Shown: positions 16,388 through 21,081 of the stretch, piece by piece
How positions within the stretch are numbered: position 1 is the first letter of the stretch
Layout of the letters: every line of letters begins with the position of its first letter
From: Hysterium pulicare CBS 123377
Lineage: Eukaryota; Ascomycota; Dothideomycetes; Hysteriales; Hysteriaceae
Direction of reading: 5' to 3'
Assembly (NCBI GenBank): GCA_000467715.1
Contig: AJFK01000890.1
Span: 62,001-126,000 of the forward strand
Length of the DNA stretch: 64,000 nt
Program-made: the position numbers and the translations under genes
Notes under the pieces: generated by a model
Told to the model about the DNA's origin: nothing
Databases searched by the model: none
What the model saw: only the letters and a program-made list of their open reading frames with translations

Positions 16388-16903
16388 TTACGCGCCATCA
16401 TACATGTGACTGACGGATGGATCACCACGCGACTCTTCATGTTGATGCGCTGGCGCACCGGTATCCAATTCGCTAAAGCGTCTTAAGTCCATTGGCTCAG
16501 CCAGCAGTGGTTTCACATCAGGGTCGAACGTCTTCCAGTACGGGTTCTGATTAACGTCAGCACTTCTAAATGTTGATGCTATTTGGATACTTAATCTGCG
16601 GAGGCCATTCACGCACGTTAAGGTGGTATTTTTGGCTCTAAACGAAGTATTAGTATCCTTCCTAAACAGTGGCATCAAGTCCAGCTGCGCGGGAACTACT
16701 TGTCGAGCACTCACACTCTCCCTGAGATAGCGTTCGACAATGGTGAACTTCCTCGGATCTGTAGTATCCTGCATAACGTGCCAACCAATTGTCTCTTGGT
16801 CTTTGGAATAAACCTGACTGGCTTCGATCAACTTGTCTTTGAGCTTCTCGATATCCTTTGGGTTGTCCTTAGCGTAGAGCTGAACGACTATTGTGTAAAC
16901 CAT
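16388..16903 (-). CDS. ABM-domain (antibiotic biosynthesis monooxygenase-like) protein
   Basis: Three exons: 16903-16715, a 21-base microexon 16637-16617, and 16546-16388; introns of 77 and 70 bases, all in phase 0; 122 residues. The start 'MVYTIVVQLYAKD' is a first beta strand, followed by 'IGWHVMQDTTDPRKFTIVERY', and splicing restores 'SSQKYHLNNPYWKTFDP', the continuous family sequence. This is the dimeric alpha/beta-barrel (ABM/EthD-like) fold. Members are cofactor-free oxygenases, decarboxylases or stress proteins, so the reaction cannot be named. It lies upstream of the PhnZ/PhnY-like pair on the same strand, but 1.15 kb away. Confidence 0.8.
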   Translation of the reverse strand: MVYTIVVQLYAKDNPKDIEKLKDKLIEASQVYSKDQETIGWHVMQDTTDPRKFTIVERYLRESVSARQVVPAQLDLMPLFRKDTNTSFRAKNTTLTCVNGLRRLSIQIASTFRSADVNQNPYWKTFDPDVKPLLAEPMDLRRFSELDTGAPAHQHEESRGDPSVSHMYDGA

Positions 16904-18053
16904 TTTGAGTCCAGCTGGAAATCTGATTAGGTGTTTGGGGTGTATTGCTTGAGGCCAAGAAGTTAAGAGAATCCAGAACATGACGTTAAAAGGGTCGTTG
17001 CTGGTACCTAAATATGTCGTCACATTGGTACCATTGAAAGGAGAGAGCCGGATCCCGCACTCTTCCCCGCAAATGCTCCACCGGCGATCTCCCGCCGAGT
17101 GACAAACATTTCAGTCATACAGCACTTCCCATTTGGTGGATGTGATATTGAAATAGTACTACCTCTCTGTTCTCATAAATAAGGACACTGGCATAGGTAG
17201 GTCGCTGAAGGCGGATTTTGAGAGGATTCTGTAAGTTGCTTGGATCAAACAGCTTTTCTCCTTCTCAAACGTGACTAATGTAGTTCATAGTTATAGTAGA
17301 GCATCCCTAGGAAGAACACCAGAACTAGAATTTGGCAAATTCGTGAAAGCTTTTCGGGTAGGTAGGTCATCCCGCTTCCCCACATACTTGATGGGTTTTG
17401 GGTCAGAAGATGACACCAGCGGCGTCCTTGACGGGATCATCTCGACTAGGGATCAAACTGAAGCTTTTACACACGCGAAGTTCTCGTCAATGGCTTATGA
17501 AGACGAAGGATTGTCAATCATAATTGTGTCCCCCATTTTCGCGAAAGGGAGCTCTGAAGTGCGGCTTATCAGCATGTTCGTTCTTTCCGTCCACTTTTGG
17601 TGACCGTAGCTGGGCCGGACAAATGTAAAGATTGGAAAAGGTCAGATGCGTTGAACCCGTCTCGAAATCATCGTTCTCGAAGACTATTGCTCGAATGCTC
17701 AAATCAAGTATGTTGGCTGAATTTGCCCAATTCCATTAGGGGACCCAGGTCGCTGCCGCCGCTCGGAAATGTGTGCTGTTAAAGGTAGAATCTGAAAATA
17801 TCGGTTGACAATGAAGCTCCAGCGACAATTGAGATGGCAATATGAAAGTTGACTGAAATTATGAAGGTGGTGAGATTATCACCCGGGCAGGTCGCGAAGG
17901 CGTACGGATCATATGTAATAATGGATGCAAGCGCCGATTGGTGTAACTTTGATATAAATTACGAAATGTATGATATCCAAACTCCAGAACGAGCAACCCC
18001 TTGAGAGTCTTTTCTTACATCAACGTCTGCAATTGAGCCTTTCTCGCTAATAT
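16904..18053. other. intergenic, no gene seen
   Basis: Contains the ABM gene promoter. A 110-codon plus-strand frame at 17271-17603 lacks an ATG at its start and has no domain; not called. Confidence 0.45.
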
Positions 18054-18635
18054 CTAGGGGCTTAAACACCTTTGAAGAACCTTTTTATATGATTCAACGC
18101 CATTGACTTTCAATCCCAACACTTTGGCAGCATCGTCGCATTTCCTCAACGCGCACATGTCCTCCCACCACTCACCAGTTTTCCACGCGTTCACCTCATC
18201 TTCACTCATCGGCCCGCCTTGAAACTGTAGGCTCTTCTTGCTAGCATCACTTAGATTCCCGTAGTAAGCCTTTTCCGTCGCGCACAGAAACCTCTTCGCT
18301 GGAACATGAGCTGCCACTAGCGCCGTTACTTTCGTCGAGAAGCCGAGTCGACCCAGGTACTCAGAGCCAATTGTTTCGTGCCCGACACGCCCTACATTTT
18401 CTGACATGGACTGAACATCGCCGGCTATATCTTGAACGGTGGATGCCGGAAGGAACTGGCCGATATCGTGGAGGAGAGCGGCTGCGATAAATTCGGGATC
18501 TGAGGATTGAAGAGCGGCGAAGTGGGCACACTGTAGAGAATGGGCAAGCTGTGATATTGGTTCTCCGATATAATCACCCTGCCCGTGGGTGTTCAGGAGG
18601 TCGAGGAGATGTGTGACCGTTTCTGAATGCGGCAT
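18054..18635 (-). CDS. PhnZ/TmpB-like HD-domain mixed-valent di-iron oxygenase
   Basis: One exon, 193 residues, close to the roughly 190 residues of bacterial PhnZ. Seen in order: the Y-x-G-E signature 'YIGEPISQLAHSLQCA' (Tyr22, Glu25, His32), the HD pair 'AALLHDIGQF' (His56, Asp57), 'GHETIGSEYL' (His86), 'AAHVPAKRF' (His110, Lys114), 'LQFQGGPM', and a late Asp (about 167). These correspond to the di-iron ligands and the substrate loop of PhnZ, which cleaves the C-P bond of 2-amino-1-hydroxyethylphosphonate to glycine and phosphate; TmpB does the same with the trimethylammonio analogue. General HD phosphohydrolases lack the YxGE and FQGGPM signatures. A PhyH-type dioxygenase gene, the known partner, lies 225 bases upstream on the same strand. 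Family role is strong; the actual substrate is inferred. Confidence 0.87.
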   Translation of the reverse strand: MPHSETVTHLLDLLNTHGQGDYIGEPISQLAHSLQCAHFAALQSSDPEFIAAALLHDIGQFLPASTVQDIAGDVQSMSENVGRVGHETIGSEYLGRLGFSTKVTALVAAHVPAKRFLCATEKAYYGNLSDASKKSLQFQGGPMSEDEVNAWKTGEWWEDMCALRKCDDAAKVLGLKVNGVESYKKVLQRCLSP

Positions 18636-18694
18636 TCTTGGACTGATAACAGATACGGTGCAAAGAACAAATTCCTTCGATGTGCTTTAAGAAG

Positions 18695-18727
18695 CGAAGG
18701 TCAGAGTAAGGAGCCAACTGACCTTCG
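18695..18727. promoter_or_regulatory. inverted repeat and palindrome upstream of the HD oxygenase
   Basis: Perfect 10-base inverted repeat CGAAGGTCAG (18695-18704) / CTGACCTTCG (18718-18727) with a 13-base spacer; the right arm overlaps the 10-base palindrome CCTTCGAAGG (18722-18731). A further TCCTTCGA lies at about 18673. All are 40-95 bases upstream of the HD-oxygenase ATG. It could be a dimeric regulator site or a hairpin in the leader; function is not shown. Confidence 0.4.
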
Positions 18728-18731
18728 AAGG

Positions 18732-18740
18732 ATTTATATA
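18732..18740 (-). promoter_or_regulatory. TATA-like box of the HD oxygenase gene
   Basis: TATATAAAT on the minus strand, about 100 bases upstream of the ATG at 18635 and immediately beside the CCTTCGAAGG palindrome. Position and sequence suit a fungal TATA box and imply the gene has its own promoter rather than being read through from the dioxygenase. Confidence 0.4.
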
Positions 18741-18860
18741 CCAAACTTTTCCAACATGTTTACTATTGCGGACTAATTCCGTTCCTCATAAATCAAACAG
18801 CTTGAGACTTTTACTCGACACCAATATCCCGGAAATATTCAATTTTCTCGAAAGATACGA

Positions 18861-19722
18861 TCAAACCTCCATCTGCTTACCCATGGCAACACTCAGCATC
18901 GGACTACCAAAACCATATCTCAGCGACCCTTCAGCGTAGTCCTCTCCCTCTTTCCTCAAATGCGTCGGTGGCCAAAGCTGCCTTCGATCCTCATAATACT
19001 GATCATGAAGGTTTCCTTCCCTCGCACAGTTATAAGTCGCATAAATCGCTTTCCTATCACTGCTGCTCCTGTTCGCACCACTTCTATGCGCCAGGTAGGA
19101 GCCAAAAACCAATAGCTCACCGGCTTCAAGATTCACCGGCGTCCAGGTCTGGTTCTTAACCCATTCCGCCTCAATGCAGTTGTCTTTCCCAATCGGGACA
19201 TTCATCTCATGGCTCCCATCTACAACATCTAGGCCACCATTAGTCGAGTTTGACGGATCTACAGCCAGCAAGATCGTCAAGTGCTTGATTTTCTTGATAT
19301 GAGTATATGCAGTCGAATCCACATGTGGCGAGAAACCCCCGCTTCCAGCGAGCTTATAATTGATCTTCTCTTTGAAAAGCAGCATCTCTTCGCCAGCCAA
19401 TTGTTGCAGCATGTCTAGCAGCCTTGGACCTCGGAGCAGCGTGTTGAACCCCGAATGGTAATTTGCGTAATTCTCTGTCCGACATAGCACCCTCTTGCCT
19501 TGATCATTTACTTCCTACTAAGATTAGCATCTGGAGATGTAGACGACCTTTCGCCGAACTCGCCTCGTACGGCATCCATGGAGAATTTTCTTCTCTTGGC
19601 CAGTCATGGACTTCTTGCGCCCATTTTTGGAGATCGCTGGTCTGCTCTTCGGATAGATTGTCGCAAAGTGTTAGATAGCCGTGTTCTTTGAAGAACAGAC
19701 ATTGCTCTTTTGAGAGTGTCAT
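18861..19722 (-). CDS. PhyH-family Fe(II)/2-oxoglutarate dioxygenase (PhnY/TmpA-like)
   Basis: Two exons, 19722-19564 and 19514-18861, give 270 residues. The only intron that restores the family sequence ('PWMPYEEVNDQGKRVLCRTE') starts with GC rather than GT (AG|GCGAGT ... CTAAT ... TAG, 49 bases), a GC-AG intron. Seen: 'GGFSPHVDSTAY' with the iron ligands His117 and Asp119, a third ligand His196 in 'LAHRSGANRS', and an Arg at about 207 for 2-oxoglutarate. PhyH proteins hydroxylate many small molecules; PhnY and TmpA hydroxylate the alpha carbon of aminoethylphosphonates to feed PhnZ/TmpB. The adjacent PhnZ-like gene supports that role here, but substrate is inferred from context. Confidence 0.85.
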
Positions 19723-21081
19723 GATAGACTGGAGCTATGTTTGTAAGTAAGACTTTCTACACGTAAAGAAGGTCTTCTTCACATAATTATTCCTGTTCAG
19801 TTTCCGCAAAGAGATGCGAAATATCGGTCGAATTCCATGTTGACACGGAAAATTTTATGAGGTTCGACGTCTTTTTTAGGAAGCCATTCGCGATGTTCCA
19901 ATCGTATCCCGTCTCGATATGCAGCTTCTTTACTTCTGAAAGCGGGGCAGATAACATCTCAACAAGCTTCTCCAGCTGAAACAAAGGCGAACCATTCAAC
20001 ACGTGTCTAGTATCCTATCGAACACCCTTTACGCTATTGTTCTACTCGGTCAACCTTGGAATGTGCGGACTTTCATCCTTTGATATGAATTTTCGAAGAC
20101 AAAATGCTTAGTTAGGGAAAAGTCCCGGGAAAAGCACGATATGGTGTCCCGCATATCCAACAGCAGCAAGGCTTGTAGACGATAATCTTGACGCCTGCCG
20201 AGAGTTCAATACTCTGAACTACCAAGCGCAAACAGTATATGCGGACAGAAAGAAGAGTTATGTGAGGTTGATCTGCAGCCTGGACTATAATGAATTTCTA
20301 CACTTGATGTGGAGCGGTCTCCCTTCGTTGATTCAATACTTATGTATGCTTCGCATACCTTTCCTCTGTTTCCAGATATAATCTACCGTAATTTCTTGTC
20401 CTACAGCTCTCGTACTATCTAGAGTACATTTTCATCCTATCTAACACCGGAACGCCTTTGGCATCACTCCATATAGGGCCCGTCGTCTTCCAATTTCCAG
20501 ATGGCGACTGATACAACGCCTCGATATTTTTGGCGGCCGCATTGAGCGGATGTTCCCGGACAACTCCGCACGAGGAAAGGAAAAAGACAAGTGGATAGTC
20601 GTAAGATACCGCCGACGGAGGAGACTGTGAGCATCGGAGCCGGGCAAACTTCAACTTGAAGCTATTGAAGGCCTTCGGGAGATTCAGCACAGGGAACGAC
20701 TTCAAACCCCGTTCCGGCCCTGCAAGAACAAATTTTTCCTCTCGTGTAAAGGTGTGTGACATTGAACGATGTCTCACATAAGAGGTTAAGTTTAGTTCGG
20801 ATGAGCTTTTCCAAGACCCAAGCCACCAAAGAGCTACCCCAGGTTTTAGCATCCCTTATCAACGCTAATTCCCCGCAAACTCCAATAATGCTTTGCTATT
20901 CTCTCCATTCATTGTATTACACATGCGTGCACGGAGTACGATATGAGCGCTCAATCCGGAATGTGGTTCAAATGCCTTCGCGTGGCTGCTTATTTCAACC
21001 CTCCTTCATCTATCGCTCAATGTTCAAGGCTTTATCTCAAAGGACACTACCCTACTTTCCATTGCCGAGACTTTTTTTGTA
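19723..21081. other. intergenic with possible decayed coding fragments
   Basis: Two minus-strand frames, 19787-20002 and 20415-20852, have protein-like composition ('SEVKKLHIETGYDWN', 'REEKFVLAGPERGLKSFPVLNLP') but stop codons separate them and I recognise no domain. They could be remnants of a fungal F-box/LRR-like gene; this is weak. The 3' part contains the promoter of the P450 at 21082. Confidence 0.25.

Follow-up and report, generated by a model that had tools for sequence, protein, structure and literature searches.

A PhnZ-family oxygenase gene beside a PhyH-type dioxygenase gene in the fungus Hysterium pulicare: a probable counterpart of the oxidative PhnY*/PhnZ phosphonate pathway

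The PhnY*/PhnZ pair of the uncultured bacterium HF130_AEPn_1 degrades 2-aminoethylphosphonate in two oxidative steps. PhnY hydroxylates C1 of the substrate with Fe(II), 2-oxoglutarate and O2, and PhnZ, an enzyme with a mixed-valent diiron centre, takes the hydrogen from C1 and splits the C-P bond to give glycine and phosphate, with the tyrosine of its YxxE loop guarding the O2 site (PMC8177086 section 1.4; PMC10574752). In bacteria, 7 phnY*Z clusters were counted in 19,425 complete genomes (PMC8154272 Table 1). Phosphonate use by fungi has been reported, and PhoF of Fonsecaea multimorphosa is a bifunctional PhnY-PhnZ fusion active on 2-aminoethyl- and 3-aminopropylphosphonate (PMC10574752), so that fungal oxidative phosphonate cleavage as such is prior art. 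PhoF is the only fungal enzyme of this kind that we found in the literature consulted, and unfused fungal pairs may already have been published elsewhere. Here we describe such a pair of genes in a stretch of 64,000 nucleotides from Hysterium pulicare CBS 123377 (contig AJFK01000890.1, positions 62,001 to 126,000; hereafter the window). Both genes lie on the minus strand at 18054-19722, a PhyH-type dioxygenase upstream and an HD-domain protein downstream, and we consider, with a probability of about 0.8, that the locus encodes the oxidative PhnY*/PhnZ pathway in a fungal form.

We found that the HD protein belongs to the PhnZ family of oxygenases. Among PDB sequences its sole matches at 0.001 were PhnZ (4mlm, E 7.3e-41) and TmpB (6npa, E 6.7e-24), the latter from the TmpA/TmpB system of Leisingera caerulea, and it is 44% identical to the solved PhnZ fragment. 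Pfam returned the generic HD domain only, and NCBIfam returned the phosphonate degradation HD-domain oxygenase TIGR03276 (166.3 bits, E 4.7e-49), the hydroxymethylphosphonate dioxygenase NF052439, modelled on GmPhnZ1 (142 bits, E 1.4e-41), and the TmpB model (E 2.3e-38). An AlphaFold2 model built from 40 sequences reached a mean pLDDT of 93.1, and all 10 Foldseek matches at E<=0.001 were PhnZ/TmpB chains with TM scores of 0.80-0.87 (0.87 for TmpB), ranking above the phosphodiesterase PgpH (0.41) and MIOX (0.45).

The residues of the HD protein lead to the same assignment. From 50 non-redundant bacterial HD rows, 45 were aligned and 39 were used for the fold; the six metal ligands (H32, H56, D57, H86, H110 and D167) are invariant in the fungal protein and all 45 rows, as are Y22 and E25 of the substrate loop Y22-I-G-E25, together with K114, S132, Q139 and R164. 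This YxxE loop is named as a PhnZ-type feature in PMC8177086 (section 1.4). A preliminary description made from the DNA alone had listed Y22, E25, H32, H56-D57, H86, H110, K114 and the motif FQGGPM in a protein of 193 residues; each of these was found in an intact frame, and D167, the sixth ligand, completes its list. The same description had made its assignment depend on the di-iron ligands and on phylogeny. In our hands, the fold matched that of PhnZ (Foldseek), the six ligands fit by alignment with PhnZ relatives, and the protein groups with PhnZ and not with ordinary phosphohydrolases. Relative to PhnZ and TmpB, it carries an 8-residue insertion before His86.

The upstream protein, 270 aa once spliced, is a member of the PhyH family by Pfam, and its best NCBIfam match is the methylphosphonate hydroxylase PhnY of Gimesia maris (NF052437, 166.4 bits, E 7.9e-49). 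This match, like those of the HD protein to PhnZ and TIGR03276, lies well outside what chance would give. The HxD...H iron triad anticipated in the preliminary description is present, on the strand of the HD gene, in the form of H117/D119 (within HVD) and H196, and with the 2-oxoglutarate arginine R207 it is invariant in 16 of 16 relatives. Exon 2 was modelled with a pLDDT of 86.0 (14 sequences), and its fold resembles proline hydroxylase, ectoine hydroxylase and GriE, which are hydroxylases of small zwitterions. The intron that the earlier account had implied is predicted as a 49-nt GC-AG intron with a branch-like CTAAT 9 nt from its end. It is the one that fits, and the resulting junction, WMPYE-EVNDQGKRVLCRTENY, aligns with bacterial relatives such as WMKYFEKNAQGERQLCRIENF of L003 (L and G numbers are our handles for bacterial loci and genomes). 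In the dioxygenase tree, a 99/98 clade of 41 rows comprises 24 HD-adjacent or HD-fused proteins, 16 unpaired ones and the fungal protein, which falls outside a 100/100 subclade of 13 unpaired PhnY-like rows, its position being otherwise not resolved. That unpaired subclade takes in L147-L155 and L157-L159, without a PhnZ-like HD gene nearby; L157 scores 197 bits against the methylphosphonate hydroxylase model, above the fungal protein. The coordinates are collected in Table 1.

Table 1. Features of the putative phosphonate locus, in window positions
Feature	Position	Strand	Details
HD gene	18054..18635	-	uninterrupted 193-codon frame; ATG 18635, stop 18054-18056; no intron
HD gene product			PhnZ-like mixed-valent diiron oxygenase; ligands H32, H56, D57, H86, H110, D167
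HD gene product, other residues			loop Y22-x-x-E25; K114, S132, R164
Intergenic gap	18636..18860	-	225 bp between frames; stops in all three frames
Alternative intron only	18623..18880	-	in-frame GTAAGC...CAG, 258 nt; would fuse dioxygenase to HD
Dioxygenase gene, exon 2 with stop	18861..19514	-	stop 18861-18863; HVD, distal His, 2-oxoglutarate Arg
Dioxygenase gene, predicted intron	19515..19563	-	49 nt, GC-AG; frame stops if read through
Dioxygenase gene, exon 1	19564..19722	-	53 codons; ATG 19722
CACGTG	20000..20005	.	278 bp upstream of dioxygenase ATG; weak

By alignment, the residues that bind metal and co-substrate in the two steps of the bacterial pathway are present in the pair. We propose that the Fe(II)/2-oxoglutarate dioxygenase would hydroxylate the carbon next to the phosphorus of a small phosphonate, and that the HD protein, through a mixed-valent diiron centre, would then use O2 to break the C-P bond, releasing phosphate together with a small acid, which would be glycine in the case of 2-aminoethylphosphonate. 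Since relatives of both bacterial C-P-splitting enzymes lie side by side, the fungus can probably use phosphonates as a source of phosphorus. Judging from the residues, the most likely substrate would be 2-aminoethylphosphonate or a homologue, because the amine-binding glutamate is kept (E25, corresponding to PhnZ E27).

The pairing of the two genes recurs in bacteria. A search that started from the HD protein yielded 80 loci (the best 80 of 536 confirmed matches), nine of them with a dioxygenase next door. To avoid the bias of this starting point, we also searched from the dioxygenase in 140 genomes from the order of a Legionella (G003), 193 from the phylum of G004 and 369 from the class of G001. 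A PhnZ-like HD gene adjoined the dioxygenase in 13 of the 14 fetched non-seed loci that scored at least 144 bits; because 11 of these 14 belong to Legionellales, they represent few independent events. Next to dioxygenases of 91-142 bits, a PhnZ-like HD gene was present in none of 15 loci (L088-L092, L118, L147-L155; flanks of about 1.5 kb on each side for most), and the three of these viewed over 9.5-10 kb gave none either. Fetching covered 12 of 28 matches in the order of G003, where six of the others score 111-143 bits and have unchecked neighbours, and 12 of 16 in the class of G001. On Rhodococcus and Dietzia plasmids with a dioxygenase of at least 144 bits, among the 30 of 52 matches listed, the pair is present in the order seen in the fungus. 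No dioxygenase match reached 1e-25 in 198 genomes from the phylum of G404. In 398 sampled Pseudomonadota genomes, a TIGR03276 match at E<=1e-29 occurred in 38 and a dioxygenase of at least 90 bits in 6, the two together only in the seed genome. A PhnZ-like HD gene alone does not imply a dioxygenase partner.

Three layouts were seen in bacteria: dioxygenase then HD, as in the window (Legionellales and actinobacterial plasmids), HD then dioxygenase, and a single frame with HD first and dioxygenase second (L008:3893-5356, L019:3406-4740, L037:3425-4843). L015 and L061, near relatives of these fusions, have the same order unfused. Pairs are common in Legionellales (L003, L009, L132-L143, L146), where the dioxygenase overlaps or abuts the HD gene; in the order of G003, 22 of the 140 sampled genomes hold a dioxygenase of at least 180 bits, and all 12 fetched loci are HD-adjacent (one being a repeat of L009). 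Like these and the two actinobacterial plasmid pairs (L081, L082), the fungal locus has the dioxygenase followed by an adjacent HD gene, at 35-40% identity for the dioxygenase and 36-45% for the HD protein, whereas the bacterial genes have no intron. Amoebae such as Acanthamoeba are known hosts of Legionellales. The first isolation of 1-hydroxy-2-aminoethylphosphonate was from Acanthamoeba (PMC8154272). The two plasmids share a block with a methionine-synthase-II-like gene, a 2-oxoglutarate oxygenase, a GPR1/FUN34/YaaH transporter, the PhyH dioxygenase and the HD gene, which may represent a more extensive C1 or phosphonate pathway.

Several observations weigh against assigning the locus to the PhnY*/PhnZ pathway. 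The HD protein scores under every curated NCBIfam cut-off (166 against 214.6 bits for TIGR03276, 142 against 300 and 132 against 300), and so does the dioxygenase for NF052437 (166 against 500 bits); compared with the methylphosphonate system GmPhnY/GmPhnZ1 of Gimesia maris, both proteins are thus far under the equivalog thresholds. The PhnY model is moreover unspecific, six bacterial dioxygenases (four paired and the two unpaired L156 and L157) scoring 197-257 bits, all above the fungal protein. On the substrate side, HD Gln60, after HDIG, sits by alignment at PhnZ His62, a position occupied by His in 44 of 45 bacterial rows and by Gln in one, and Val118 within the HxD of the dioxygenase takes the place of a Gln shared by 16 of 16 relatives. 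PhnZ His62 contacts the substrate hydroxyl, and PhnZ Glu27 (here Glu25) the amine (PMC7916636). Gln60 is a substrate-side residue and not a metal ligand, and the sources consulted do not define the PhnZ family by His62. The closest bacterial dioxygenase found (L144/L156, at L156:8402-9247; 41% identity, 219 bits) is the exception among the high-scoring loci and has no PhnZ-like HD gene within 18 kb. The Rhodococcus and Dietzia plasmids L081 and L082 combine a PhyH-type partner with an HD protein on the TmpB side of the tree, so that partner type and HD branch match imperfectly. Finally, the 40 open reading frames scanned, of 97 with at least 120 aa in the window, revealed neither a phosphonate transporter nor any other recognisable phosphonate gene.

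These points have to be set against what other explanations would predict. That an ordinary HD phosphohydrolase came by chance to stand beside an unrelated PhyH dioxygenase is hardly credible. PhnZ-like HD genes are indeed commoner than the dioxygenase in the sampled Pseudomonadota (38 against 6 genomes, with both in the seed genome only), but the oxygenase-specific YxxE loop, the fold search, the HD tree and the dioxygenase-first adjacency all oppose it, and an ordinary phosphohydrolase was set aside on the fold search and the tree. A TmpA/TmpB-type pair, acting on 2-(trimethylammonio)ethylphosphonate to give glycine betaine, is very improbable as well. The HD protein shares with TmpB the fold, the ligands and the YxxE loop, it matches TmpB at E 6.7e-24 and TM 0.87, and L081 and L082 indicate that a PhyH-type partner by itself does not exclude TmpA/TmpB. 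However, the HD tree (91 rows) places the fungal protein on the side of PhnZ, with 80 other rows, and a 98/97 branch, at which the tree tool warned of long branches meeting, separates this side from nine rows comprising TmpB, three close relatives of it, L081, L082 and three others; TmpB and its close relatives form a four-row clade (100/100) without it. In addition, two annotated plasmid TmpB relatives (76% and 86% identity) directly follow TauD/gamma-butyrobetaine-type dioxygenases of about 380 aa, whereas the partner in the window is PhyH-type with 270 aa. Because of the HD tree and the partners of these TmpB relatives, we regard the pair as PhnY/PhnZ-like and not TmpA/TmpB-like, and a glycine-betaine product as unlikely. 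The preliminary description had offered both labels: PhnY/PhnZ is supported, as a PhnZ-type HD protein beside a PhnY-type dioxygenase, and TmpA/TmpB is not, given the 98/97 branch and the TauD/GBBH partners.

Two further possibilities would leave the locus within the oxidative pathway. The pair may be of PhnY/PhnZ type and act on a phosphonate other than 2-aminoethylphosphonate, e.g., methylphosphonate or another soil or fungal phosphonate, which we find rather doubtful though the most serious of the alternatives. The only phosphonate model matched by the dioxygenase is the methylphosphonate hydroxylase, characterised PhnY/PhnZ pairs vary in substrate (PMC6581173, PMC10574752), methylphosphonate being that of the Gimesia maris and Prochlorococcus pairs, and Gln60 for PhnZ His62 together with Val for Gln in the dioxygenase HxD suggests, from substrate-side residues altered in both proteins, that the substrate may differ. 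Conversely, the amine-binding E25 and the loop tyrosine are retained, the characterised fungal PhoF takes 2-aminoethyl- and 3-aminopropylphosphonate (PMC10574752), and the NCBIfam match may be biased, no 2-aminoethylphosphonate hydroxylase model appearing among the matches of the fungal or six bacterial dioxygenases. Alternatively, a second intron at about 18623-18880 could make the locus one gene, a bifunctional PhoF orthologue, with the two-gene appearance an artefact of the gene model. This is a sub-case of our preferred explanation and not its opposite; if the genes are fused, the locus amounts to a PhoF orthologue and nothing more. In favour of fusion, there is an in-frame GTAAGC/CAG pair whose use would replace the six C-terminal residues of the dioxygenase and a few N-terminal ones of the HD protein, the dioxygenase-then-HD order is also that of PhoF, and the dioxygenase extends about 10 residues beyond the end of most aligned bacterial enzymes. 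One fusing intron with a good donor is nevertheless weak evidence, since 12 in-frame GT/AG combinations are available. At 258 nt, such an intron would be far longer than the 49-nt one, the single CTRAY site within it is 78 nt away from the acceptor, and the two domains would be linked by just a few residues. The ATG of the HD gene falls within two residues of the PhnZ start by alignment and has A at -3, and the gap is AT-rich (GC 0.387, against 0.52 in the HD gene and 0.49 in dioxygenase exon 2), with a TATA-like TATATAAA at 18733-18740, some 100 bp ahead of the HD start codon, though a motif of this kind also arose in 516 of 2000 shuffles, a quarter. Taken together, we consider two separate genes clearly more likely than one fused gene, and the fused form unlikely.

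In the oxidative PhnY*/PhnZ reading, the fungal locus differs from the described systems in a few respects. It shares all metal ligands and YxxE with PhnZ and differs from PhnY*/PhnZ in that its genes are eukaryotic and spliced, with Gln60 for His62 and the 8-residue insertion. Like PhoF, which we compared by description and not by sequence, it is fungal and has the same two kinds of domain (PMC10574752); unlike the fused PhoF, it has two frames and a gap of 225 bp, unless the alternative intron joins them. The new element may be this two-gene form with altered substrate-side residues. Somewhat more speculative, and in our view unlikely as a whole, is the idea of a two-gene fungal pair with both substrate sites remodelled for a phosphonate new to oxidative pathways and gained independently of, or before, the PhoF fusion. 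PhoF is said to have the dioxygenase domain first and the HD domain second. The single-frame fusions L008, L019 and L037 run in the reverse of that order.

Among the bacterial proteins found, the nearest share 41% (dioxygenase) and 45% (HD) identity with the fungal ones. In the HD, dioxygenase and joined trees, which were built, as applicable, without L083-L087 (duplicates of seed loci) and L141 (a duplicate of L009), the fungal proteins lie deep, on long branches, and their placement was not resolved. A bacterial origin through an old transfer, followed by gain of the intron, is plausible. No viral carriers of the genes were confirmed in our scans.

The two-gene pair is an obvious candidate for the means by which such fungi obtain phosphorus from phosphonates, and it lets fused and separate fungal forms be compared. 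The two changed substrate-side residues offer a way to test directly what determines specificity in these enzymes. Besides the fungal protein, only one HD row of the 45 has Gln in place of PhnZ His62, namely L112:3902-4540 on a Novosphingobium plasmid. Its neighbour is a phosphocholine-specific phospholipase C, and no dioxygenase is annotated beside it.

Within the gap between the genes, an inverted repeat, CGAAGGTCAG...CTGACCTTCG at 18695-18727, was spotted by eye. The CACGTG upstream of the dioxygenase corresponds to the core of sites for the fungal phosphate-starvation regulator. A phosphate-response site was considered here and rejected, as CACGTG is not enriched in the window, with 7 occurrences seen and 12.6 expected.

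As for the surroundings, Pfam was run on 40 of the 97 open reading frames of at least 120 aa, the 57 others being left out apart from the pair. A wider phosphonate gene cluster was considered and rejected, none of the Pfam matches of the 40 frames being tied to phosphonates. The minus-strand frame at 16391-17110, downstream of the pair, had no Pfam match at 0.001 and has a look that we take to be antibiotic-biosynthesis-monooxygenase-like. The matches include P450s, MFS carriers, an FAD-binding oxidoreductase, a serine carboxypeptidase, NPHP3_N/DUF7708, DUF7025/AAA, an arylsulfotransferase, a class II tRNA synthetase, an NAD(P) transhydrogenase, a zinc-transporter dimerisation domain and GH64. 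Such content is in keeping with a filamentous fungus: besides the P450s, NPHP3_N/DUF7708 and GH64, the P450, serine carboxypeptidase and transhydrogenase genes are split over frames as by introns, and the efflux carrier is of fungal type.

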